Assembly (NCBI GenBank): GCA_021202245.1
Contig: JAJQDK010000023.1
Location: forward strand, 1-32,879
DNA length: 32,879 nucleotides
Reading direction: 5' to 3'
Origin: Clostridiales bacterium
Lineage (GTDB): Bacteria; Bacillota; Clostridia; Oscillospirales; Acutalibacteraceae
A program made the translations under genes and the position numbers. The notes below the pieces were generated by a model. The model had not been told where the DNA came from. It did not search any database and worked only from the letters and a program-made list of their open reading frames with translations. Positions 1,174-23,872 of the stretch are shown here, piece after piece; position 1 is the first letter of the stretch, and each line of letters begins with the position of its first letter.

Positions 1174-2106
1174 TCAGTTATTCCTTTCAATAGAGTCGCC
1201 GTTTGTTTCAACGCTGTTCTCGCTGCCGTCGGTAGTGACCTTTACGGTTTTGTCATGGTCTGTTCTGTAGATTTCCGCATTAAACTGCTCCAACAATTCC
1301 AAGGTGGATTCGTGGGGATGACCGTAGTCGTTGCCCTCGCCTACAGAAATAACCGCAATACCGGGATTAACATTATAAAGAAAATCCTCTGTCGTAGATG
1401 TATTGCTTCCGTGATGTCCGACTTTAAGCACATCCGCTGACATATTATATGTAATTTCAGATAGCTCCTCTTCCTCGGCATCGCCTGTAAAAAGGAATTT
1501 GGTGCTGCCGTAGGTAATTTTTAGGACGATTGAGCAATTATTTAAATCACTTTCGTTAATAGTGACGGGACCGAGGATGTCAACCGAGCAGCCATCCTCT
1601 TCAAATATATTCATTCCTGCTGTTGCAGAGGTGATTTTTAAGCCTTTGTCGGATACGGCAGTCAGGAGATTTTCGTAGGTCTTGGTGGTTGTGCCGACGT
1701 TCGGCATATATACCTGCCCTATGTCGGTATTTTCTACAACATAAGTCATTGAACCGATGTGGTCGGCGTGAGGATGAGTTGCAATGAGATAATCAATTTG
1801 CGAATATCCGAGGTTGTCTATATAGCTTACAATTCCTTCTCCTTCTCCGCTTACTCCTGCATCAATCAGCATAGACTGAGCGTTAGGCAGCTCGATAAAA
1901 ATCGAATCGCCCTGCCCTACGTCGAGAAAATGGCAGACAAGACTGCCGCCCTGCGGTGTCAGCTCCTCTTCCTCGTTTAAAAAATCGCTCAAATCAAATT
2001 CAAAATACGCACACGAACAAAATGTGATACATACCGCAAGCAGAGCGCAGAGAACGGAAGCAGCCCGAATTTTTAAAAATTTTATCTTATTTCTGTTTCG
2101 TTTCAT
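1174..2106 (-). CDS. ComEC/Rec2-like metallo-beta-lactamase-fold hydrolase, secreted lipoprotein-like
   Basis: Signal/lipobox-like N-terminus (ITFCSCAYF), HFLDVGQGDSIFIELPN, THPHADHIGSM, LFTGDAEEEE, LKVGHHGSNTST. Confidence 0.85.
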   Translation of the reverse strand: MKRNRNKIKFLKIRAASVLCALLAVCITFCSCAYFEFDLSDFLNEEEELTPQGGSLVCHFLDVGQGDSIFIELPNAQSMLIDAGVSGEGEGIVSYIDNLGYSQIDYLIATHPHADHIGSMTYVVENTDIGQVYMPNVGTTTKTYENLLTAVSDKGLKITSATAGMNIFEEDGCSVDILGPVTINESDLNNCSIVLKITYGSTKFLFTGDAEEEELSEITYNMSADVLKVGHHGSNTSTTEDFLYNVNPGIAVISVGEGNDYGHPHESTLELLEQFNAEIYRTDHDKTVKVTTDGSENSVETNGDSIERNN

Positions 2107-2132
2107 AGATACCTCTCATTTTTCTGTTTTTT

Positions 2133-2288
2133 AACTCGGAACAAAGCCCGATGTAAGCTTGCTTAACATCGCAACCTCGCCGCAGGAGCGTTAGCTCCTC
2201 AGTGTTTCAGTGGAAGATTACAACTCCCTCTGAAATGACGAATGGCACCCGCCGCCTTAGAGGCGGGGACATCTTTGCATAAGTTATA
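2133..2288 (+). repeat. Dispersed structured repeat, long form (copy A)
   Basis: Shares ggagcgttagctcctc...gtttcag..gg.agattacaactccctctgaaatga.gaatggcacccgccgccttag.ggcgg with 21493-21664. Confidence 0.8.
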
Positions 2289-2364
2289 TCTTCTATTTTA
2301 CAGCAAATAAATATTTTTTCAAGCTTTGATTTAAAGGCTGCAAAATCACCGCCTTTATAAAGGA

Positions 2365-2409
2365 AAAAGCAGGACTGTATACCGACAAGAGCGGCGCAGT
2401 CCTGCTTTT
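2365..2409 (-). terminator. Intrinsic terminator downstream of ABC exporter genes
   Basis: AAAAGCAGGACTG...CAGTCCTGCTTTT inverted repeat with flanking A/T tracts. Confidence 0.8.
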
Positions 2410-2440
2410 GTATAATAAAGAAAATGTCAGCAAGAAATAT

Positions 2441-4345
2441 TTAAGCTGTTTTTCCCGTATAGAGCTGATAGTATTTGCCCTTTTTCTCCAAGAGCTGATC
2501 GTGAGTTCCGCGCTCGATTATTCTTCCTTGCTCAAGAACCATAATGCAGTCCGAATTTTGAATAGTAGACAGGCGGTGAGCTATAACAAAGGTTGTTCTG
2601 CCCTGCATCAGCTTATCCATACTGTCCTGAACCATTCTTTCGGTGCGTGTATCAATAGAGCTTGTTGCCTCATCAAGAATAAGAGCGGGCGGATCCGCAA
2701 CAGCCGCACGAGCTATTGCAAGCATCTGCCGTTGTCCCTGGCTGAGATTTCCGCCGTCACCCGTTAATACTGTGTTGTAGCCTTCGGGAAACTTGCGGAT
2801 AAAGCTGTCTGCGTTGGCAAGCTTTGCCGCTGCAACAACCTCTTCATCGGTTGCGTCAAGTCTGCCGTAACGGATATTTTCCATTACGGTACCCGTAAAC
2901 AGGTGAGTATCCTGCAAAACGATACCGAGCGAACGTCTTAAATCAGCCTTTTTAATCTTATTGATATTTATGCCGTCATAACGAATCTTGCCGTCCTGAA
3001 TATCATAGAAGCGGTTGATAAGATTGGTTATTGTAGTTTTTCCGGCGCCGGTTGAGCCTACAAAGGCAATCTTCTGTCCGGGTGTTGCGTACAGTTCTAT
3101 ATTGTGAAGCACCATATTGTTGTCGTTATAGCCGAAATCAACGTCATCCATTACAAGCGCACCCTGAAGCTCTTTGTACTCTACCTCGCCTGTTTCCTGA
3201 TGAGTGTGCTTCCAAGCCCAAAGTCCTGTATGCTCGTTTGTTTCAACAAGTCTGCCGTTTTCTTTCTTTGCATTTACAAGAGTAACGTAGCCGTTGTCCT
3301 CCTCGGGCTTTTCGTCAAGCAAATTGAATATACGCTCAGCGCCGGCAAGCGCCATTATTATGCTGTTAAACTGCTGGTTTACCTGGGTAATCGGCTGGGT
3401 GAAGCTCTTGTTAAACGTGAGGAAGCTTACGAGCGCGCCTACGGTAAGACTGCCCACTGAGTTGAGGGCGAGCAGGCTGCCTATAATTGCGCAAAGCACA
3501 TAGCTTACATTGCCGAGCTGCGCATTAACAGGCATAAGTATATTTGCAAATTTATTGGCATTGTAAGCGCTTTCATAGAGCTTATCGTTAAGCTCTTCAA
3601 ATTCTTCGATACTCTTTTCCTCGTGATTAAACACCTTAACGACCTTTTGACCGTTCATCATCTCTTCAATGTAGCCGTTTTCCTTACCTAAATTCCTTTG
3701 CTGGGCAAGGAAGTATTTGCTGCTTCTTGAGCCGAGTGCCCTTACGCAGAGGAGCATAACTACAACCATTGCAAGAGTTACCAACGTAAGCGTTATACTC
3801 AAGGATATCATACTGATAAGCACGCTTACTATAGTAATTACCGCCTGGAAAATCTGGGTAAGGCTTTGGCTTATCATTTGGCGGAGAGTATCGACATCGT
3901 TGGTGTAGATACTCATTATATCGCCGTGAGAGTGGGTATCAAAATATTTTACGGGAAGCTTCTGCATATGCTCAAATATTTCGCTTCTTACATTCCTCAA
4001 AGTGCCCTGAGAAACATTTACCATTATTCTTGAATACGCATATGTGGCAAGCACGCCTGCCAAATAGAAGGCGGCTACCCTTAAGATTGCGGAAATAAGA
4101 GGTCCGAAATCGGGGTTTGTTTGTCCCATCATCGGCGTAATATAGTCGTCAATAAGCGTTTGAATAAACAGGGTTCCCTGAACATTTGAAAGTACGCTTA
4201 TAACAATACAAACCAAAACCACTATCATATGCACCGTGTATTTTTTAAACATAAGTCCGAGTATACGGCCCAAAACCTTCATCGGTTTTTGCGCTCTTGC
4301 TCCGGTATCCGGTTTTCTGTTTCTTCCGCCCATAGGTCCCGGCAT
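2441..4345 (-). CDS. ABC exporter, permease/ATP-binding protein (canonical NBD)
   Basis: N-terminal TMD; Walker A GSTGAGKTT, LSQGQRQ signature, Walker B ALILDEATSSID. Confidence 0.92.
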   Translation of the reverse strand: MPGPMGGRNRKPDTGARAQKPMKVLGRILGLMFKKYTVHMIVVLVCIVISVLSNVQGTLFIQTLIDDYITPMMGQTNPDFGPLISAILRVAAFYLAGVLATYAYSRIMVNVSQGTLRNVRSEIFEHMQKLPVKYFDTHSHGDIMSIYTNDVDTLRQMISQSLTQIFQAVITIVSVLISMISLSITLTLVTLAMVVVMLLCVRALGSRSSKYFLAQQRNLGKENGYIEEMMNGQKVVKVFNHEEKSIEEFEELNDKLYESAYNANKFANILMPVNAQLGNVSYVLCAIIGSLLALNSVGSLTVGALVSFLTFNKSFTQPITQVNQQFNSIIMALAGAERIFNLLDEKPEEDNGYVTLVNAKKENGRLVETNEHTGLWAWKHTHQETGEVEYKELQGALVMDDVDFGYNDNNMVLHNIELYATPGQKIAFVGSTGAGKTTITNLINRFYDIQDGKIRYDGININKIKKADLRRSLGIVLQDTHLFTGTVMENIRYGRLDATDEEVVAAAKLANADSFIRKFPEGYNTVLTGDGGNLSQGQRQMLAIARAAVADPPALILDEATSSIDTRTERMVQDSMDKLMQGRTTFVIAHRLSTIQNSDCIMVLEQGRIIERGTHDQLLEKKGKYYQLYTGKTA

Positions 4346-4347
4346 AA

Positions 4348-6096
4348 TTACATCTCTCCTTTCTCGTCAAAATCGCCGCTGCCGCCCGTTTGAGCGGCAT
4401 ATATCTCGCTGTAAATCGGGCTTGCTTTGAGAAGCTCGTCACTTGTTCCGACAGCGCTGATTTTTCCGTCGTCCATTACAATAATTTTATCTGCGTTTTC
4501 AACGCTTGAAACACGCTGGGAAATAATAATTTTTGTAGTATTGGGGATTTCCTCACTGAAGGCTCTGCGGATTTTGGCGTCCGTTGCGGTATCAACTGCG
4601 CTTGTAGAGTCATCAAGAATGAGTATCTTCGGCTTTTTGAGCAGAGCTCTTGCTATGCAAATTCTCTGCTTTTGACCGCCCGAAACATTCGTGCCGCCCT
4701 GCTCGATATAGGTGTTGTATTTGTCGGGGAAGCTCTGAATGAAGTCGTCGGCGCAAGCAAGCTTGCAGACGTTTATACATTCCTCTTCCGTAGCGTTTTC
4801 ATTGCCCCACCTGAGGTTATCGAGAATTGTACCGCTGAAAAGCACATTTGACTGAAGCACAACGGATACCTCGTCACGCAGGGTTTTTAAATCGTAGGCT
4901 TTTACATTCTTTCCGCCCACATAAACCTCGCCGTCGGTGGTGTCGTACAATCTGCCTATAAGGTTTACAAGGCTTGTTTTTGAGCTGCCCGTGCCGCCGA
5001 TGACACCGATGGTTTCTCCTGATTTTATCGAAAGATTTATATCAGACAAAATCGGCTTTTCGGCAGTTTTATTATAGCTGAACGATACATTTTTAAAGTC
5101 AATGCTGCCGTCCTCAACCTTATAATCGGGATTTTCGGGATTTGTGAGGTCGGATTGCTCATTAAGCACGCCTGCAACACGCTTTGCGCTTGCAATGCTC
5201 ATAGTCAGCATTACAAATATCATTGCAAGCATAAGCAGACTCATAAGTATATTCATACAGTAGGTAAGCATACTTGTAAGCTCCCCGGTAGTAAGCGTTT
5301 CGGAAACTATCATATTAGCGCCGAGCCAGTTAATGGCAATCAACGAGCCGTAAACGGCAAACATCATTACCGGAGATACGGAAGCCATTGCTCCCTCAGC
5401 CTTTACAAAGAGCTTATAAAGATTATTAGCCGCCTTGTTGAATTTTTTTACCTCATAATCCTCACGTACAAAGGATTTTACAACACGGATTGCCGAGACG
5501 TTTTCCTGAACGCTTGCGTTAAGCTCATCATACTTTTCAAATACACGGCTAAAATATTTGTAGGTTGACTTAATCAAAAATGTCAGCACTATTCCAAGCA
5601 CAACAATTGCGATAAGATAAACCGAGGCAAGCCTTGCGTTGATAATAAGCGTCATTACCAAAGCGCAAATCAAGCTTATAGGCGCTCTGACGCACATTCT
5701 CAGCAGCATTTGATAAGCGTTTTGAATGTTGGTAACATCGGTTGTCATTCGTGTTACAAGTCCTGCGGTAGAATATTTGTCAATGTTTGCAAACGAGAAG
5801 GACTGAATATTCTTAAACATAGCCTCTCTGAGATTGTGAGCTAAGCCCGCCGACGCCTTTGCTCCGTACTTTCCACCCATTATACCGGCAAAAAGACCGA
5901 TTAAGGCGCAAACCAGCATACATCCGCCGGTTATAAAGATTTGCTGCATATTCCCCGCTGATATGCCGTCGTCAATCATTCTTGACATAAGCAGCGGAAT
6001 AATCATCTCAACAATTACTTCAAGAATCATAAACAGCGGAGTGGCAACAGAAGCCTTGGTGAATTGCTTAATGTGTTTCGCTAAAGTTTTTATCAA
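4348..6096 (-). CDS. ABC exporter, permease/ATP-binding protein (degenerate catalytic site)
   Basis: TMD plus NBD: GGTGSSKTS, VSGGQKQR, ILILDDSTSAVD. Likely start is the TTG at 6096, preceded by GGAG (aaaggagtattcaaTTG); the ORF-track ATG at 6141 overlaps the regulator gene. Confidence 0.88.
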   Translation of the reverse strand: MIKTLAKHIKQFTKASVATPLFMILEVIVEMIIPLLMSRMIDDGISAGNMQQIFITGGCMLVCALIGLFAGIMGGKYGAKASAGLAHNLREAMFKNIQSFSFANIDKYSTAGLVTRMTTDVTNIQNAYQMLLRMCVRAPISLICALVMTLIINARLASVYLIAIVVLGIVLTFLIKSTYKYFSRVFEKYDELNASVQENVSAIRVVKSFVREDYEVKKFNKAANNLYKLFVKAEGAMASVSPVMMFAVYGSLIAINWLGANMIVSETLTTGELTSMLTYCMNILMSLLMLAMIFVMLTMSIASAKRVAGVLNEQSDLTNPENPDYKVEDGSIDFKNVSFSYNKTAEKPILSDINLSIKSGETIGVIGGTGSSKTSLVNLIGRLYDTTDGEVYVGGKNVKAYDLKTLRDEVSVVLQSNVLFSGTILDNLRWGNENATEEECINVCKLACADDFIQSFPDKYNTYIEQGGTNVSGGQKQRICIARALLKKPKILILDDSTSAVDTATDAKIRRAFSEEIPNTTKIIISQRVSSVENADKIIVMDDGKISAVGTSDELLKASPIYSEIYAAQTGGSGDFDEKGEM

Positions 6097-6127
6097 TTTG
6101 AATACTCCTTTCCGTACACCTTTAATT

Positions 6128-6627
6128 TCATAAATTTTCAATACCCTTTCTTAGCTTTTTGATTAAATACACAAATGTCTTTTGTTCTTCTTCCGTGAGA
6201 AGGCTGTTTAACCGCCGGTTATTATCTGCAATAGATTTATCAATTATATGGCATACAGACACGCCTTTATCGGTAAGAATTATTTTTTTAGCCTTGCATC
6301 ACTTTCAATCGAAATGCGTCTTATGTAATTCTTTTTCTCCATCAGCTTGAGTATGCTGGTAACGGTGGAACGAGCTATGGCAAATTCCGCCTCAATATCC
6401 TTTTGAAAAATATCATTTTCACGGTTGATATACAAATACTTGATTATCCACCCGTGCATTACCGTAACCTGTTCCACACCTGCTTTTGTCGCAATGGCGA
6501 TTAGCTTACGGTTAAGGATATTATCCAGCGCTTTTATCTCACGACTGATAAAGTCCGGTGATTCATCAAAATTCTTTTGCTCAAATTTTTGAAGCAGGCA
6601 ATTTTGAGAAGCACACTCCGAATCCAT
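6128..6627 (-). CDS. MarR-family transcriptional regulator, interrupted by an apparent -1 frameshift at A7
   Basis: Frame 1 (6280-6627): winged-helix MarR-like ...AEFAIARSTVTSILKLMEKKNYIRRISIESDARLKK-stop. The -1 frame continues IILTDKGVSVCHIIDKSIADNNRRLNSLLTEEEQKTFVYLIKKLRKGIENL to TGA at 6128-6130 (166 aa in total). Confidence 0.75.
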
Positions 6628-6879
6628 ACAAACACCTCCTGCCTTATTCTACAAAAAATTGTTAAATTATTAACCGTTCGATATAAAACATTTTCTGCGT
6701 ATTTTATTATACACCTTTCAGAGTGTAAGTTAACAAGCAAATTAAATGTTCACACAATTTTCAGATTCAGACTTATTTTGAAATATTTTCAAGGTTAAAT
6801 TGCAAAATTCAATAATATATTTCTCGTTTTGACCTTTTAATTAAATATGCAAGTATTTTAAAAAATATTTCATTTTATA

Positions 6880-6908
6880 TTGACAATGAATATTTGCGGT
6901 GTTAGAAT
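6880..6908 (+). promoter_or_regulatory. Sigma70/sigmaA-type promoter for the ATP-grasp operon
   Basis: TTGACA (6880-6885), 17-nt spacer, TAGAAT (6903-6908). Confidence 0.8.
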
Positions 6909-6920
6909 ATTAACATAAAC

Positions 6921-6959
6921 AAAGGCGTTTTACACTCAAATTGTGTAAAGCGCCTTTTT
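6921..6959 (+). promoter_or_regulatory. 5'-leader terminator-like hairpin directly after promoter
   Basis: AAAGGCGTTTTACAC-tcaaatt-GTGTAAAGCGCCTTT (15-bp stem with one G-U) ending in a T5 run; RBS aaggagg lies just downstream. Confidence 0.75.
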
Positions 6960-6980: not shown

Positions 6981-8297
6981 ATGGATGGACTCATCAGAAA
7001 CTCAGAAACCATCAATAAGCTGTTGTCACGCTACGGCGTAAAATTCGGCATTTATAAAAACGGCGTGTTCAAGGAACAGCTGTTTCCTTTTGACCCGGTT
7101 CCTAGGATTATAAAATACGATGAATTTTTGTATCTTGAAAAAGGTCTTACTCAAAGGGTAAATGCTCTGAATATGTTTTTGAGCGACGTATACGGCAGCA
7201 AGCAAATTATCAAGGACGGAGTTATTCCTGAGGAATTTGTGTACTCGGCATCGGGCTTTTTGCCTCCCTGCGACGGAGTTATGCCGTCCAAAAACATATA
7301 CAGTCACATTTCGGGCATTGACCTTGTACAATCAAAGGATGATAACTGGTACATACTTGAGGACAATTTACGAGTTCCCTCCGGCGCCTCATATTCTATG
7401 ATTGCACGAGAGCTGCAAAGAAGAAGCACGCCGGAAACATTTCGGCAGAACAGTGTGATTGACAACAGAAATTATGCCGATTTGCTCAAAGAGGTTATGG
7501 ACAATGTTAATACGGGCGGCATCAATGTAATTCTGTCGCCGGGCAGATACAACGCCGCTTACTTTGAACACTCCTATCTTGCCGAAAAGACAGGCGCCGT
7601 GCTGACCACAGGCAATGATATTGTATGCGAAAACGACAATCTTTATTATATAGATTACAACGGCAAAAAGCAGCGTATCGGCGCAGTGTACAGAAGAATT
7701 TCCGACGAATACTTAGACCCGATGACATTTAACGAGGAATCCGTTATCGGAATTCCGCATATATTTGAAGCGTACAAAAAAGGCAATGTCGCCTTAATCA
7801 ACGCTCCCGGAAACGGAGTGGCTGACGACAAGGGAATTTATTATTTTGTGCCTAAAATGATTAAATATTATCTGGGCGAGGATTCGATTTTGAAAAATGC
7901 GCCGACCTATCTCCCCTATTACGAGGATGATATGAAATATGTGCTTGATAAATTTGACAGCTTGGTAATAAAGGACGTTGCTGAGGCGGGAGGCTACGGA
8001 GTAGTGTTCGGCAGCTCTCTGACCAAAGAGAAAAAGGCGGATTTTATCGAGCTTCTCAAAAAAGAACCGAGGAGGTTTATTGCACAGGAGGTCATTGATT
8101 TTTACGACTTGGACATCCTCGGCGACGACGGCAGTCTTGTGCCGAGAAAAGCAGGTTTGAGAGCTTTTGTACTTACGGGAAGGTCTACAAAGGTATGGCC
8201 GAGCGGACTTACACGCTTTTCACGCAACCCCGATTCATTCATAGTAAATTCATCACAGGGCGGAGGTTTTAAAGATATATGGGTATTATCACGTTAG
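6981..8297 (+). CDS. Circularly permuted type 2 ATP-grasp protein (COG2308-like)
   Basis: 438 aa: ...GIDLVQSKDDNWYILEDNLRVPSGASYSMIARELQRRSTPE..., VIKDVAEAGGYGVVFGSSL, RAFVLTGRSTKVWPSGLTRF. Ends where an alpha-E gene begins. Confidence 0.9.
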   Translation: MDGLIRNSETINKLLSRYGVKFGIYKNGVFKEQLFPFDPVPRIIKYDEFLYLEKGLTQRVNALNMFLSDVYGSKQIIKDGVIPEEFVYSASGFLPPCDGVMPSKNIYSHISGIDLVQSKDDNWYILEDNLRVPSGASYSMIARELQRRSTPETFRQNSVIDNRNYADLLKEVMDNVNTGGINVILSPGRYNAAYFEHSYLAEKTGAVLTTGNDIVCENDNLYYIDYNGKKQRIGAVYRRISDEYLDPMTFNEESVIGIPHIFEAYKKGNVALINAPGNGVADDKGIYYFVPKMIKYYLGEDSILKNAPTYLPYYEDDMKYVLDKFDSLVIKDVAEAGGYGVVFGSSLTKEKKADFIELLKKEPRRFIAQEVIDFYDLDILGDDGSLVPRKAGLRAFVLTGRSTKVWPSGLTRFSRNPDSFIVNSSQGGGFKDIWVLSR

Positions 8298-8947
8298 AAA
8301 AAAGCAACAATTTATTTTGGCTGGGACGATATATCGAGCGTGTTTACACGACCTTGAAATATTACATTAAGGGCACGGACAGGATGCTTGACAGCGATCC
8401 CGGATATTATTCGGTGTTTTGCAACAAAATAGGCATTACGAACATTTACGGCTCCCGTGAGGTTTTTGCCAAGACCTATCCCTTTGACGAAACCGACCCC
8501 AACTCTATTATAAGCAATCTCAACAGGGCGTATGACAACGCAATTATTCTGCGTGACTACATAGGAACCGAAACTATGGCGTACATTCAGCTTGCCGTTG
8601 ACGACATTGAGACAGCTCAGCGGGGCGACGCGCCCTTGGCTGATTTGATGCTTGCTATTGACCATATACTTGCATTTTGGGGATGCGTCAACGATATGAT
8701 TGACGATATACAAACCCGAAACATTATAAAGCTGGGCAAGGGCGTTGAAAGAGTTGACCTGTATCTCAGTCTTGACAAACCGCTTTCGGAAATCAAGAGG
8801 GAATACAACAGAATGAAGCAATTTCTTGAGAAATCCCGTATGAGATATGATGAGAGCATTATCAACACCTTTGACGCAATGATAAATTCGTCGGATTTTA
8901 ATTATACAAATGCAAGGAATCTTATGCGTAACCTCACTATTGAATAA
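8279..8947 (+). CDS. Alpha-E domain protein (COG2307-like)
   Basis: 222 aa: MGIITLEKSNNLFWLGRYIERVYTTLKYY...; overlaps the ATP-grasp gene by 19 bp. Confidence 0.88.
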   Translation: MGIITLEKSNNLFWLGRYIERVYTTLKYYIKGTDRMLDSDPGYYSVFCNKIGITNIYGSREVFAKTYPFDETDPNSIISNLNRAYDNAIILRDYIGTETMAYIQLAVDDIETAQRGDAPLADLMLAIDHILAFWGCVNDMIDDIQTRNIIKLGKGVERVDLYLSLDKPLSEIKREYNRMKQFLEKSRMRYDESIINTFDAMINSSDFNYTNARNLMRNLTIE

Positions 8948-8953
8948 GAAAGA

Positions 8954-9754
8954 GTGATTGTTATTAAAAACCTGAAATTTAACTACAAATTGCAGGCACA
9001 ATACAGCGCACCCATTGAGCATCATAATTTTTCGGTAATGTTTTTGCCTGCAAGTAATAACAGACAGGAAATTACAAGCCTGAATATTGATATTAAAGGC
9101 TGTGATAAGTACAATCTTACCACCGATAACTTCGGCAACGGGAAATGCTACGGTAAAATTGCAGAGCCGCACGATTTTTTTGACATCTGTATCTGCGGAA
9201 CGGCAAAAACAGGCATTGATATTTACGAGGAATACACAAGCGATCCGATGCAGTATTCCCTACTGAAATGCCATACTAAGCTAACCTATCCTTATGAAAA
9301 GCTTACAGAATACCACAAAAGCTTAGAATTGGACAAGCTGAGCGGGCCTTATGACAAGGCGCTGCACATAATGCATACTATTTACTATACCTTTAAATAT
9401 CTGCCCGGCGCTACGTCCATACACGAAACCGCCGAGGAGGCCCTTGCACTGGGAGAGGGCGTATGTCAGGATTACGCGCACATAATGGTGTCGCTGCTCA
9501 GGATGGAGGGTATAGCCGCAAGGTATGTTGTGGGAATGATTCCGGGAGATGGCGCAAGCCACGCTTGGGCGGAGGCGCTGTGCAACGGATATTGGTACGG
9601 CTTTGACCCCACCAACAACAAGCTTGTAAACGACGAGTACATAAGGGTATCCTGCGGCAGAGATTCAAGCGACTGTGCAGTGATTAGGGGCACGTTCAGA
9701 GGGATTGTAGCTCAAAAGCAATCCGAAGCCGTAACGGTTGAAGAGATTATTTAG
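8954..9754 (+). CDS. Transglutaminase-like protease-fold protein (COG1305-like)
   Basis: Catalytic triad motifs EGVCQDYAH (Cys), SHAWAEAL (His), YGFDPTNN (Asp). Confidence 0.9.
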   Translation: MIVIKNLKFNYKLQAQYSAPIEHHNFSVMFLPASNNRQEITSLNIDIKGCDKYNLTTDNFGNGKCYGKIAEPHDFFDICICGTAKTGIDIYEEYTSDPMQYSLLKCHTKLTYPYEKLTEYHKSLELDKLSGPYDKALHIMHTIYYTFKYLPGATSIHETAEEALALGEGVCQDYAHIMVSLLRMEGIAARYVVGMIPGDGASHAWAEALCNGYWYGFDPTNNKLVNDEYIRVSCGRDSSDCAVIRGTFRGIVAQKQSEAVTVEEII

Positions 9755-9803: not shown

Positions 9804-10733
9804 ATGGTCAGCACCATTGCATCGGTAGGTCTGCCTATTGATGAAACACTGATGATAAAGAAAAACCGTCTGATTCCCAAGGAGGGACTCAAGGGCGGTG
9901 AAAAAAGGATAAGCATTGTAACGGGCACACACGGCGATGAGCTTGAGGGGCAGTATGTATGCTATGAGCTGCAGCGCAGAATTAAAGAAAGCTATGACTG
10001 TCTGACGGGCATAGCCGACATTTATCCTGCATTGAATCCGCTGGGCGTTGACTCGATAACAAGGGGGATTCCGGGATTTGATTTGGATATGAACAGAATG
10101 TTTCCGGGTTCGGGGCACAACTCAATGCCGGAATACATCACCTCGCAAATCACAAACGATTTGAGCGGGAGCGACGCTGTAATTGACATACATGCAAGCA
10201 ATATCTATTTGAAGGAAATCCCGCAAATACGAATTAATGAAATTACAAGGGACACGCTTGTGCCGTATGCAAAGTTGCTCAATGTTGACTATATTTGGAT
10301 TCATGCCTCGGCAACCGTGCTTGAATCCACTCTCGCCTACTCGCTCAACAGTATAGGAACTCCCACGCTGGTTGTTGAAATGGGCGTAGGTATGAGAATT
10401 ACAAAGGAGTACGGCGATCAGCTTGTTGACGGGATATTTTGCCTTATGAAGGAGCTTGGAATATGGCAGGGCAAAGTCATTGAGCCTAAAAAGCCGATTA
10501 TCTCGGAGGACGGCAAGGTTTCGTTTATAAACGCAAACAGCGCCGGCGTATTCGTACCTCTTGCAGAGCATTGGAAAAATGTAAAAAAAGGCGACCCTAT
10601 CGGCAAAATCCTAAATCCGCTTACCGGAGAAGCCGCAGAAGAAATTTTTGCGCAGACGGACGGTATCGTGTTTACACTGCGTGAGTATCCGATTGTATCG
10701 GAAGGCTCGCTCGTTGCAAGGATACTTTCGTAG
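9804..10733 (+). CDS. Succinylglutamate desuccinylase/aspartoacylase-like M14 metallo-deacylase (intact active site)
   Basis: GTHGDELEG (HxxE), NRMFPG, VIDIHAS, LVVEMGVG. Confidence 0.85.
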   Translation: MVSTIASVGLPIDETLMIKKNRLIPKEGLKGGEKRISIVTGTHGDELEGQYVCYELQRRIKESYDCLTGIADIYPALNPLGVDSITRGIPGFDLDMNRMFPGSGHNSMPEYITSQITNDLSGSDAVIDIHASNIYLKEIPQIRINEITRDTLVPYAKLLNVDYIWIHASATVLESTLAYSLNSIGTPTLVVEMGVGMRITKEYGDQLVDGIFCLMKELGIWQGKVIEPKKPIISEDGKVSFINANSAGVFVPLAEHWKNVKKGDPIGKILNPLTGEAAEEIFAQTDGIVFTLREYPIVSEGSLVARILS

Positions 10734-10749
10734 GGGGATTGGGATTATT

Positions 10750-11688
10750 ATGGAAGAAAAAACACTGTATGAATTAGGCTCAATTTACAGGGATAATATG
10801 CGGGTAAAGGGCTATATATTCGGCAAAGGAGAAAAATCCGCCTGCATTGTCGGAGCAACACGAGGCAATGAAATACAGCAGGTGTATATGTGTTCTCAGC
10901 TCATTAAAATTTTTACACAGCTTGAAAAGCTCGGAAAAATACAGGACGGAAAATCAATTATGGTTGTTCCCACCGTAAACAGCTATTCAATGAACATAGG
11001 AAAGCGTTTTTGGTCAACCGACAACACGGACATAAACAGAATGTTTCCCGGCTACAATCTCGGCGAAACAACTCAGAGAATAGCCGCAGGTGTGTTTGAA
11101 AGCGTGAACGACTATAAATACGGAATTCAGTTTACAAGCTTTTATATTCAAGGTAATTTTATTCCCCACGTAAGAATGATGAAAACGGGTTTTGAGGACC
11201 TTGACCTTGCGAGAGATTTCGGTCTTCCCTACATTTACCGCAGAAAGCCCCGTCCGTATGATACAACAACGCTCAACTATAATTGGCAGCTGTGGAAAAC
11301 AAAGGCATTTTCGGTATACACAAACGCAACCGACAGCATTGATACAGTAAGCGCACGGGAAGCTATCAACTCGGTTTTAAGCTTTCTGAATAAAAACGGC
11401 ATTATTGATTACAAATGCCACGAAGGATACATATCTCAGCTTATAGAAGGCGACTTGCTTGTCAACGTAAAATCCTTTGTTTCGGGTATTTTGGTAGTAC
11501 GCTCCGACGCAAATTCAAGCGTTAAAAGGGGCGATTTGCTCGCAGAGATTCTTGACCCGTACACGGGCAGGGTACTCGATGAGATAACCTCGCCCGTAAA
11601 CGGAATTGTATTTTTCCACGCAAACCAACCGCTGATTTACTCTCAGACAACGCTGTTTAAAATCATTCGGGAGGACGACCTGATTTAA
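10750..11688 (+). CDS. AstE/AspA-like M14 paralog, predicted pseudoenzyme
   Basis: ATG at 10750 (MEEKTLYELGSIYRDN). Retains NRMFPG and the C-terminal lipoyl-like region but has GATRGNE, IQFTSF and VYTNAT where 9804-10733 has THGDE, IDIHAS and VVEMG. Confidence 0.8.
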   Translation: MEEKTLYELGSIYRDNMRVKGYIFGKGEKSACIVGATRGNEIQQVYMCSQLIKIFTQLEKLGKIQDGKSIMVVPTVNSYSMNIGKRFWSTDNTDINRMFPGYNLGETTQRIAAGVFESVNDYKYGIQFTSFYIQGNFIPHVRMMKTGFEDLDLARDFGLPYIYRRKPRPYDTTTLNYNWQLWKTKAFSVYTNATDSIDTVSAREAINSVLSFLNKNGIIDYKCHEGYISQLIEGDLLVNVKSFVSGILVVRSDANSSVKRGDLLAEILDPYTGRVLDEITSPVNGIVFFHANQPLIYSQTTLFKIIREDDLI

Positions 11689-12718: not shown

Positions 12719-13857
12719 TCAGAGGTCGTTGACACCTACAATCTGTTTTTGAATTTCGGTAACATCGGTAACGTCAATACGTCCGTCATCATTAAAATCG
12801 CTGACAGAAGAATAGGATAAATCAGATTTATCCTCCGCCTTGCCTACAATAATTTTTTGAATGTAGGTTGCATCGGAAACAGAAAGCGAGCCATCCGAAT
12901 CTGCATCGCCTATCAGGTATACGCTCATAAGATAAGACGGGGAATTCTCTTTTAAACATTCGCACATCTCAGAGCCTGAGATTATTTTTTGTTCCAACGC
13001 TTCATCAAGTGTAAGCACATCTCCGGTTTCGGTATTAACAGCTAAATATCCGAACGGCGACAACGATCCGTACTGACTCACTTGATAAATATATCCGTTT
13101 ATTCGCTCCACAAGTTTGCCTTCATCTACGTCAGCATTGTTATATCCGGTATTTATAATTCTGTAACCGTTACTGAAATATTTGAAAACAGGAACGTCCA
13201 CATAATAATCGGGCTCATCCGGAGTTACTGAAATATTATTGTAATACTCGTCAACAAGTGAGTAAATATTCACTGCTTCCTCGCCGGTCACAAAATCTTT
13301 ATTTTTGGTTTCCGGCACAAGAGTCATATAGAAGTCCTTTAACTCATTAGTAAGGTTATCAATATACTCCGGGTCATTCTCATAACATATCGCAATCTGA
13401 GCATTAAGCACATAATCTGTCAAGGCGCTCTTATTATCCTCAAACAACAAATCGCTGTAATTTTTTTAACATAGGCGCCGTATTCATAGTATCTGCCGAT
13501 TAACTCATCCTGCCAATTACATTCAATAAAATTATACCGTGTTTCAACAAGCACAGCTGTGGCTTCGTCAACTTCGACCTGCGTAGCGTCCGGATTATTA
13601 TATACTTTCAAAGCCATTTCCTCCGCCGCCTTCACATTTTCATAATATTCGACTGTCAGATTAAAACCTTCAAACCACTCGTAATTGTATAAAGCGTCAT
13701 ACAGCGCAGATTTATCCACATCGTCTGCATCTGCTTCTGAAACATACTGAGAAGAATTTTCAGCAGCGCAAACATTAAGAGTTATACTCGGTGCACAGAT
13801 AATTGATAACGACATCAGCACTGCAACGGTCTTTTTGAAGCTGTTATACTTTTTCAT
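12719..13857 (-). CDS. Secreted dockerin protein, interrupted by an apparent -1 frameshift at A7
   Basis: 13420-13857 carries the signal peptide and FIVAR-like N-terminus; 12719-13450 carries the C-terminal dockerin (GDADSDGSLSVSDATYIQKIIVG...DFNDDGRIDVTDVTEIQKQIVG). They join as ...YGAYVKK|NYSDLLFEDNKSALTDYV... after a -1 shift at T7 13461-13467. Confidence 0.7.
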
Positions 13858-22000: not shown

Positions 22001-22030
22001 AATATAAATCAATTATAGGCGGTGTATCAT

Positions 22031-23872
22031 ATGATAAAAAAATCAATCAAAGCTGCATGCAGCATGGCTTTAGGTGCTGTTGTGATATTTTCATCTGCAT
22101 TCTGTATGAATGTATCCGCTGAGGAAAGCTCTCATGCAGAACTTGTTTCAATAAAAAACATAGGCGGAAAAGTTACAGCAGTAAAGAACAGCGATGTGGA
22201 AATTGATGAAATCACACAAGAGCAGAGCAATAGGCTAAAGAAAAGCTCCTCCCTCCCATCCTATTACAACCTTGCAGAGCTGGGACTTTCAACCTCTGTC
22301 AAAAATCAAAACATCTACGGCACCTGTTGGAGCTACGGTATTTTGTCGGCTTTGGAATCAAATATAATTCTTGCGGGCAACGCAGACTCAAGCCTTGATT
22401 TGTCGGAAAAGCACCTTACGTGGTTTACCTTTAACGGACAGGACAGCAGTTCGGACACAAGCCTTTACGCCGGCGGAGATACCTTTTTATGCGACAACTC
22501 TGATTGTTATAATTACGGCGGAGATACGGTTTTTTCATTGCCGACTCTTATGAGAAGATACGGTGCCCTTGACGAAAGCAAGCTTTCATTCAGCTTTGAC
22601 AGCGATGATTATAATGTTGACGACAGCTTGAGGACAGAATCCGACATATATATTGAAAACGCTTATTATTTGGACAGCACTGCATATATTGAGTACGATT
22701 TTATGGGCAGCATCAGCGACCAAGGAACCTTAGATGAAGCCGAATTCAACGAAAGCCTCACGGCAATTAAAGAGGCCCTGATGAACACAGGCGTTGTCGA
22801 TATAGGATTGTATGTATCGGATGCGGTAACCGGCTCGGTTGACAACGATGAATATTGGAACGGAACCTACAACAGCTATTATTTTGATGCTTCCGTTACG
22901 AGCAGCAAGCGTGATAACGGCTACCGTTCAGCTAACCACGAGGTTTGTATCGTGGGCTGGGACGACAGCTTTTCCAAAGATAATTTTGAAATTCAAGCTC
23001 CCGGCGATGGTGCGTGGATTGTGAAAAACAGCTGGGACACAGATTGGGGCGACAACGGATATTTTTACTTATCTTATTATGATATAGGCTTATCCGGCAT
23101 TACCGTTTGCGTGGCTGAAAACGCAGAGTATAAATCCGACGGCACAACAGAGCATACATATGAAAACATATATCAATACGACGGTGTAGGAAACGGCTCA
23201 TATCAATTTTATGATGAAAGCGGCGACACTGTTTTGGCAGCAAATTACTTTTCCGCAAGAGGAAACGAGGTGCTTGAAGCAATAGGAATGGAATCTTTGG
23301 TTGCGGATATAACAGTAAATTATGATATTTATCTTAACCCGACCTCCTCAAAAGACCCGACCACCGGAACGCTTGCCGAAAGCGGAAGCAAGTACTGCGA
23401 GTATGGCGGCTACTACACGATACCGCTTGAAAGCTCGGTGAATCTGAGCAGCGGTGATACGTACGCTGTGGTTATTTCAATCACTTTTTCGTCTGACGGA
23501 GATTTGTATTATATGTATCCGTGCGAAATCTCGGACAGAAACGACAGCTATGTCACCATTGAATCAAACAGCGGCGAAAGCTCTATATTCTGTAACGGCA
23601 CCTGGAAAGCAATAACAAGCAACTACACTATGGACGGCTACCGGTTCGGAAACGCCTGCGTTAAAGCTTACACTAATGATACAAGTATAAAATATGATGT
23701 CAATCTCAACGGAGTAACGGATGTTTCGGATGTTACCGCCGTTCAGCAATACACGGTGGGTACAATAACATTGACATCCGAGCAAATTGAAATTGCCGAT
23801 GCAAACGGCGATAACGCTGTCAATGTTCAGGATGCAACCATTATTCAAAAATATATTGTCGGCTTAGAATAA
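22031..23872 (+). CDS. Secreted C1A (papain-like) cysteine protease with C-terminal dockerin
   Basis: Signal peptide; NQNIYGTCWSYGILSALESN (Cys), NHEVCIVGWDD (His), WIVKNSWDTDWGDNGYFYLSY (Asn); C-terminal DVNLNGVTDVSDVTAVQQYTVG...DANGDNAVNVQDATIIQKYIVG. Confidence 0.92.
   Translation: MIKKSIKAACSMALGAVVIFSSAFCMNVSAEESSHAELVSIKNIGGKVTAVKNSDVEIDEITQEQSNRLKKSSSLPSYYNLAELGLSTSVKNQNIYGTCWSYGILSALESNIILAGNADSSLDLSEKHLTWFTFNGQDSSSDTSLYAGGDTFLCDNSDCYNYGGDTVFSLPTLMRRYGALDESKLSFSFDSDDYNVDDSLRTESDIYIENAYYLDSTAYIEYDFMGSISDQGTLDEAEFNESLTAIKEALMNTGVVDIGLYVSDAVTGSVDNDEYWNGTYNSYYFDASVTSSKRDNGYRSANHEVCIVGWDDSFSKDNFEIQAPGDGAWIVKNSWDTDWGDNGYFYLSYYDIGLSGITVCVAENAEYKSDGTTEHTYENIYQYDGVGNGSYQFYDESGDTVLAANYFSARGNEVLEAIGMESLVADITVNYDIYLNPTSSKDPTTGTLAESGSKYCEYGGYYTIPLESSVNLSSGDTYAVVISITFSSDGDLYYMYPCEISDRNDSYVTIESNSGESSIFCNGTWKAITSNYTMDGYRFGNACVKAYTNDTSIKYDVNLNGVTDVSDVTAVQQYTVGTITLTSEQIEIADANGDNAVNVQDATIIQKYIVGLE

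Follow-up and report, generated by a model that had tools for sequence, protein, structure and literature searches.

A conserved clostridial AstE/AspA paralog without both zinc histidines and the catalytic glutamate, encoded next to its intact relative

The gene pair and its operon

Two paralogous genes, p1 and p2, lie head to tail on the forward strand of the window (the whole 32,879-nucleotide stretch of DNA analysed here). p1 (9804–10733, + strand) encodes an intact AstE/AspA-type zinc amidohydrolase of 309 amino acids (PF24827, E = 3.9e-22), with His43, Glu46, His130 and Glu192 in the active site and substrate residues Arg87, Asn97 and Arg98. p2 (10750–11688, + strand) starts with the ATG at 10750, encodes 312 amino acids and matches the same family at E = 9.8e-10 (38.7 bits to AstE_AspA_cat, cut-off 25). 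The 16 bases between the genes (10734–10749, + strand) are purine-rich (GGGGATTGGGATTATT) and probably hold the ribosome-binding site of p2. Across the whole genome, p2 matches only the p1 and p2 places at E ≤ 0.001.

The two proteins align over 284 columns with 24% identity (E = 2e-18). This alignment pairs His43 of p1 with Arg38 of p2, Glu46 with Glu41, His130 with Thr129 and Glu192 with Tyr190; we take the residue roles to be those known from carboxypeptidase A and aspartoacylase. The third zinc ligand, the Glu of the HxxE motif, is thus still present in p2 (Glu41), as are Arg86, Asn96 and Arg97 on the substrate side. A preliminary sequence-only reading had claimed that the downstream paralog has lost both zinc histidines and the catalytic Glu, and we find the motifs where it placed them; the retained zinc Glu and substrate-side residues are additions to that account. 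As far as the alignment predicts, p2 has kept its substrate-binding side and lost its metal-binding and catalytic side, and p2 is very probably not a zinc amidohydrolase.

Three genes precede the pair on the same strand. The first gene of the operon encodes a circularly permuted ATP-grasp protein (CP_ATPgrasp_2, 6981–8297, +; PF14403, E = 9e-133) and is followed by genes for an alpha-E domain protein (8279–8947, +; PF04168, E = 3e-16) and a transglutaminase-like protein (8954–9754, +; PF01841, E = 9e-19), in whose translation Cys (GVCQDYA), His (SHAWAE) and Asp (GFDPTN) are present. A search for defence systems with PADLOC gave no match.

Co-occurrence of p1 and p2

Of the 247 genomes searched from the order, 23 contain p1 (E ≤ 1e-60) and the same 23 contain p2; one p2 (genome G759) is truncated. 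Many gut Clostridia have p1 and p2 as adjacent genes, and in 98 pairs the median spacing is 1 bp, with 95% within 60 bp and many short overlaps. One genome (G788) has an additional p1 and an additional p2, on separate contigs. In G759, p2 is down to 47 matching residues and the ATP-grasp gene is fragmented (locus L193, 3180–5702); no alpha-E match is seen there, p1 and the transglutaminase gene are present, and the operon seems to be decaying.

The order CP-ATP-grasp, alpha-E, transglutaminase, p1, p2 is conserved as a single operon in most loci, heliobacteria included, as would be expected if p2 served the first three proteins, and not p1, as a scaffold or specificity factor, for example by presenting a modified substrate to the ligase. 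However, in seven of nine tested genomes with p1 and p2 (mostly Clostridium drafts) no CP-ATP-grasp passes the cut-off, and some of these pairs lie beside aminotransferase and transporter genes; we therefore consider a role of this kind quite improbable. Since the pair is present without a detectable CP-ATP-grasp, p1 plus p2, and not the five-gene operon, looks like the working unit.

In three Clostridium loci (L066, L067 and L079; ~1800–6933), the pair adjoins genes for a GABA-type aminotransferase, a PucR/CdaR-like regulator and amino-acid transporters. The aminotransferase and transporter neighbours hint that the substrate of p1–p2 is an amide derived from an amino acid.

Fixation of the substitutions

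We gathered orthologs from 80 genome loci and from family, phylum, order and heliobacterial searches, and aligned 105 distinct p1, 102 distinct p2 (main clade) and 21 outgroup proteins jointly, using p1 numbering. The His, Glu, His and Glu of the active site are kept in all 105 p1 and all 21 outgroup proteins, and in the p1 orthologs the HxxE...H triad, the catalytic Glu and the Arg...Asn-Arg residues are all invariant or nearly so. In the p2 orthologs, position 43 is Arg in 101 and Lys in one, position 130 is never His (0/102; Ala, Thr, Ser, Pro or Val instead), and position 192, the catalytic Glu, is Tyr in 100 and Phe in two. Since the pattern is fixed in 102 p2 proteins and absent from 105 p1 and 21 outgroup proteins, it is not due to chance. 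The equivalents of Arg87, Asn97 and Arg98, which vary in the outgroup, are retained in 101, 102 and 102 of the 102 p2 proteins, respectively, and p2 has invariant motifs of its own (KRFW..D..D, GETTQ, PHVR and LNYNWQ.W).

The median dN/dS is 0.093 for p2 and 0.063 for p1, both rough values from a simple Nei–Gojobori count with differing pair sets and rather high dS. On this codon-level estimate p2 is under purifying selection and is conserved, not decaying. It is very hard to credit that p2 is a decaying duplicate heading for loss: the truncated copy in G759 fits such a fate, but the open frames are intact and the residues fixed in 102 orthologs from several families, with a dN/dS of about 0.09.

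By descent, p2 belongs to the AstE/AspA (M14-like) family, as its PF24827 match, its Foldseek relatives and the tree described below agree. As to catalysis, the two zinc histidines and the general-base Glu of the family are missing in 102/102 main-clade orthologs, and p2 is a pseudoenzyme in the sense that its catalytic residues are lost while the protein is conserved. The ortholog alignment that the sequence-only reading had called for thus finds the p2 substitutions fixed clade-wide, and its view of p2 as a pseudoenzyme beside an active paralog gains support from this fixation, from purifying selection and from the co-occurrence with p1.

Heliobacterial orthologs and the history of the duplication

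All five tested genomes of one lineage (f57) encode a PsaA/PsaB-like reaction centre, from which we infer that the lineage represents the heliobacteria. In all six sampled p2 proteins of this group the zinc triad is intact, but the catalytic Glu is replaced by Met, within an ungapped stretch of the alignment.

In a tree of 77 proteins, P1 has a support of 100/98, and P2 together with the heliobacterial p2 proteins one of 100/96. Within the latter group, the zinc-less P2 clade (100/100) is set off by a stem 2.58 changes per site long, and the length of this stem puts the orthology of the heliobacterial p2 proteins at some risk in the tree. Apart from the tree, this orthology is supported by what heliobacterial and other p2 proteins have in common, namely GETTQRIADG, the PH.R motif and the position in the operon.

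Orthologs that keep the His and Glu residues were named beforehand as the observation that would speak against a pseudoenzyme. The heliobacterial proteins go halfway, with both zinc histidines present and the catalytic Glu absent; they are likely intermediates and not a refutation. The simplest order of events is a single duplication, followed by loss of the Glu and then by loss of the zinc site. Alternatively, the Glu may have been lost independently, to Met in one lineage and to Tyr in the other.

Another tandem AstE/AspA-like pair, with both active sites intact, is found at locus L109 (1069–3119, - strand; genome G333). Its members are mutual nearest relatives in the tree and probably stem from an independent duplication.

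Structure models

The AlphaFold model of p2 has a pLDDT of 85.5 and a pTM of 0.85. Its nearest solved folds are DoeB/EutE (6twm; Foldseek probability 1.00, TM about 0.7) and then CphZ (8eip). p2 His140 is invariant and may be regarded as a candidate replacement ligand on the basis of the alignment.

To model the pair, we fused p1 and p2 of locus L073, which lie in one frame there, by reading through the stop, and used 11 paired rows. The resulting model has a pTM of 0.56 and a pLDDT of 74.6, and the relative placement of the two halves is of low confidence. A mixed alignment of fused and single proteins was dropped, as its p2 rows fell on the p1 half. The weak conserved loop 83–93 of the p2 model was rejected as a sign of partner binding because the same loop is weak in p1. 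Locus L029 (1066–2952) was considered as a natural p1–p2 fusion and discarded, its N-terminal part being unrelated and the whole probably an assembly join; the same holds for L042.

p2 could have been neofunctionalised, acting either without metal or through a new metal site formed by its own invariant residues (R38, E41, C48, H140, R165, Y190, GETTQ and LNYNW). The rigid p2-only signature, with many 100% invariant positions around the old active site, is compatible with this, as is the invariant His140, which the zinc-bearing heliobacterial proteins already have; a long stem (2.58 changes per site) with strong constraint after it also looks like a new function. Nevertheless, loss of both histidines and the general base with retention of the pocket is the usual pseudoenzyme pattern, C48 is mostly Cys in p1 too and is thus no new ligand by itself, and p2 is strictly paired with an active paralog, which speaks for a role as its partner. 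We therefore regard neofunctionalisation as unlikely.

Comparison with known systems

p1 and p2 have the fold and the C-terminal beta domain in common with DoeB/EutE (N-acetyl-diaminobutyrate deacetylase), AstE and AspA (PF24827). Like these enzymes, p1 has all catalytic residues, whereas p2 is without both zinc histidines and the general base. As a DoeB of ectoine utilisation, p1 scores 51.9 bits against an equivalog cut-off of 402.7 (TIGR02994, NCBIfam); being so far below this cut-off, it probably has a different substrate. CphZ, the second-ranked fold match of p2 (12% identity), hydrolyses the cyanophycin dipeptide beta-Asp-Arg (PDB 8ein/8eip), and isopeptide hydrolases of this type carry M14 or succinylglutamate desuccinylase annotation (PMC10206079). 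A cyanophycin pathway was rejected for the source genome, in which no cyanophycin synthetase passes the cut-off.

Active-site changes have been tabulated for the eukaryotic M14 pseudopeptidases AEBP1/ACLP, CPXM2, CPD domain III and Ecm14 (PMC11266112). In AEBP1, CPXM2 and CPD-III the general-base Glu is replaced by Tyr (Y270), while Ecm14 retains the zinc ligands and has Lys instead of the Glu (PMC11266112). p2 shares the Glu-to-Tyr change with the former three, apparently by convergence, and the heliobacterial p2 proteins resemble Ecm14 in keeping the zinc ligands with an altered general base (Met versus Lys). In contrast to p2, which retains the R127/N144/R145 equivalents, the listed eukaryotic proteins are without the substrate-binding R145; p2 also differs from them in being bacterial and in adjoining an active paralog. 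The M14 pseudoenzymes in that survey are eukaryotic (PMC11266112); p2 would add a bacterial example that is fixed throughout Clostridia and coupled to an active paralog. Our literature search found no paper on an AstE/AspA pseudoenzyme pair, and a prior description in a 2009 amidoligase review is possible.

Pairs of a zinc-bearing and a zinc-less homologous subunit are known among M16B proteins (TTHA1264/TTHA1265, SPH2681/SPH2682 and AlbF/AlbE; PMC12731061), and the mitochondrial processing peptidase is built likewise. TTHA1264 by itself is monomeric and inactive, its partner being the product of the neighbouring gene (PMC12731061). The M16B proteins belong to an unrelated fold and family, and their complex is proven, whereas a p1–p2 heterodimer is proposed only. 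By analogy, p2 most likely works as the inactive M16B subunits do.

The Anbu operon comprises ATP-grasp, alphaE, transglutaminase and Anbu genes (PMC6376114). The first three genes of the p1–p2 operon are the same in kind and order, and p1–p2 stands in Anbu's place. The source genome has no match to the proteasome family PF00227, and 10 of 14 control genomes do.

Proposed role of p2

The reading of p2 with the best support is that of a non-catalytic p1 subunit whose carboxylate pocket contains no metal. The sequence-only reading had suggested a regulatory or substrate-binding partner, which gene coupling and the conserved carboxylate pocket make the best inference; a complex is putative, the fusion model having a pTM of 0.56. 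That the genes are adjacent and co-occur is equally compatible with a shared pathway and with a complex. The p1–p2 distance correlation (0.86) is the lowest among the five operon genes, and the mirror-tree signal was rejected as evidence of co-evolution since it is not specific to p1–p2.

In the history that we propose, p1 is a zinc amidohydrolase of the AstE/AspA family, and the duplication giving rise to p2 predates the split of the heliobacterial from the other clostridial pairs. In p2 the general-base Glu would have disappeared first and the zinc histidines later, along a single long branch, while the family's Arg/Asn/Arg grip on the substrate carboxylate was kept and residues specific to p2 became fixed. 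The residue losses, their fixation, the purifying selection, the co-occurrence and the branching order are observed; what follows on binding is proposed. p2 would bind p1, and its metal-free pocket would perhaps hold a carboxylate substrate or product, by which p2 could complete, orient or regulate the p1 site. That p2 acts through p1 is probable; for a carboxylate ligand in its pocket we see an even chance. On balance, we lean towards a single amide or isopeptide hydrolase in which p1 is the catalytic and p2 the non-catalytic subunit, the two having arisen by one duplication. A wider picture, in which an obligate AstE/AspA hydrolase and its dead paralog, with a heliobacterial intermediate, take Anbu's place and provide the cleaving half of a ligation–cleavage cycle, is tentative and somewhat doubtful.

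Extant relatives that seem to represent an earlier stage of the loss make it possible to test directly how a subunit of a metalloenzyme turns into a non-catalytic partner, and the pair gives a handle on ATP-grasp/alpha-E/transglutaminase operons, the function of which is putative.

Other genes of the window

A secreted dockerin protein is encoded on the - strand (12719–13857), apparently split over two frames (12719–13450 and 13420–13857) at an A-run near 13430, which reflects a sequencing error or else a genuine frameshift. On the + strand, 22022–23872 encodes a papain-family cysteine protease with a lectin-like domain and a dockerin, which suggests a cellulosome-like system in the source genome.
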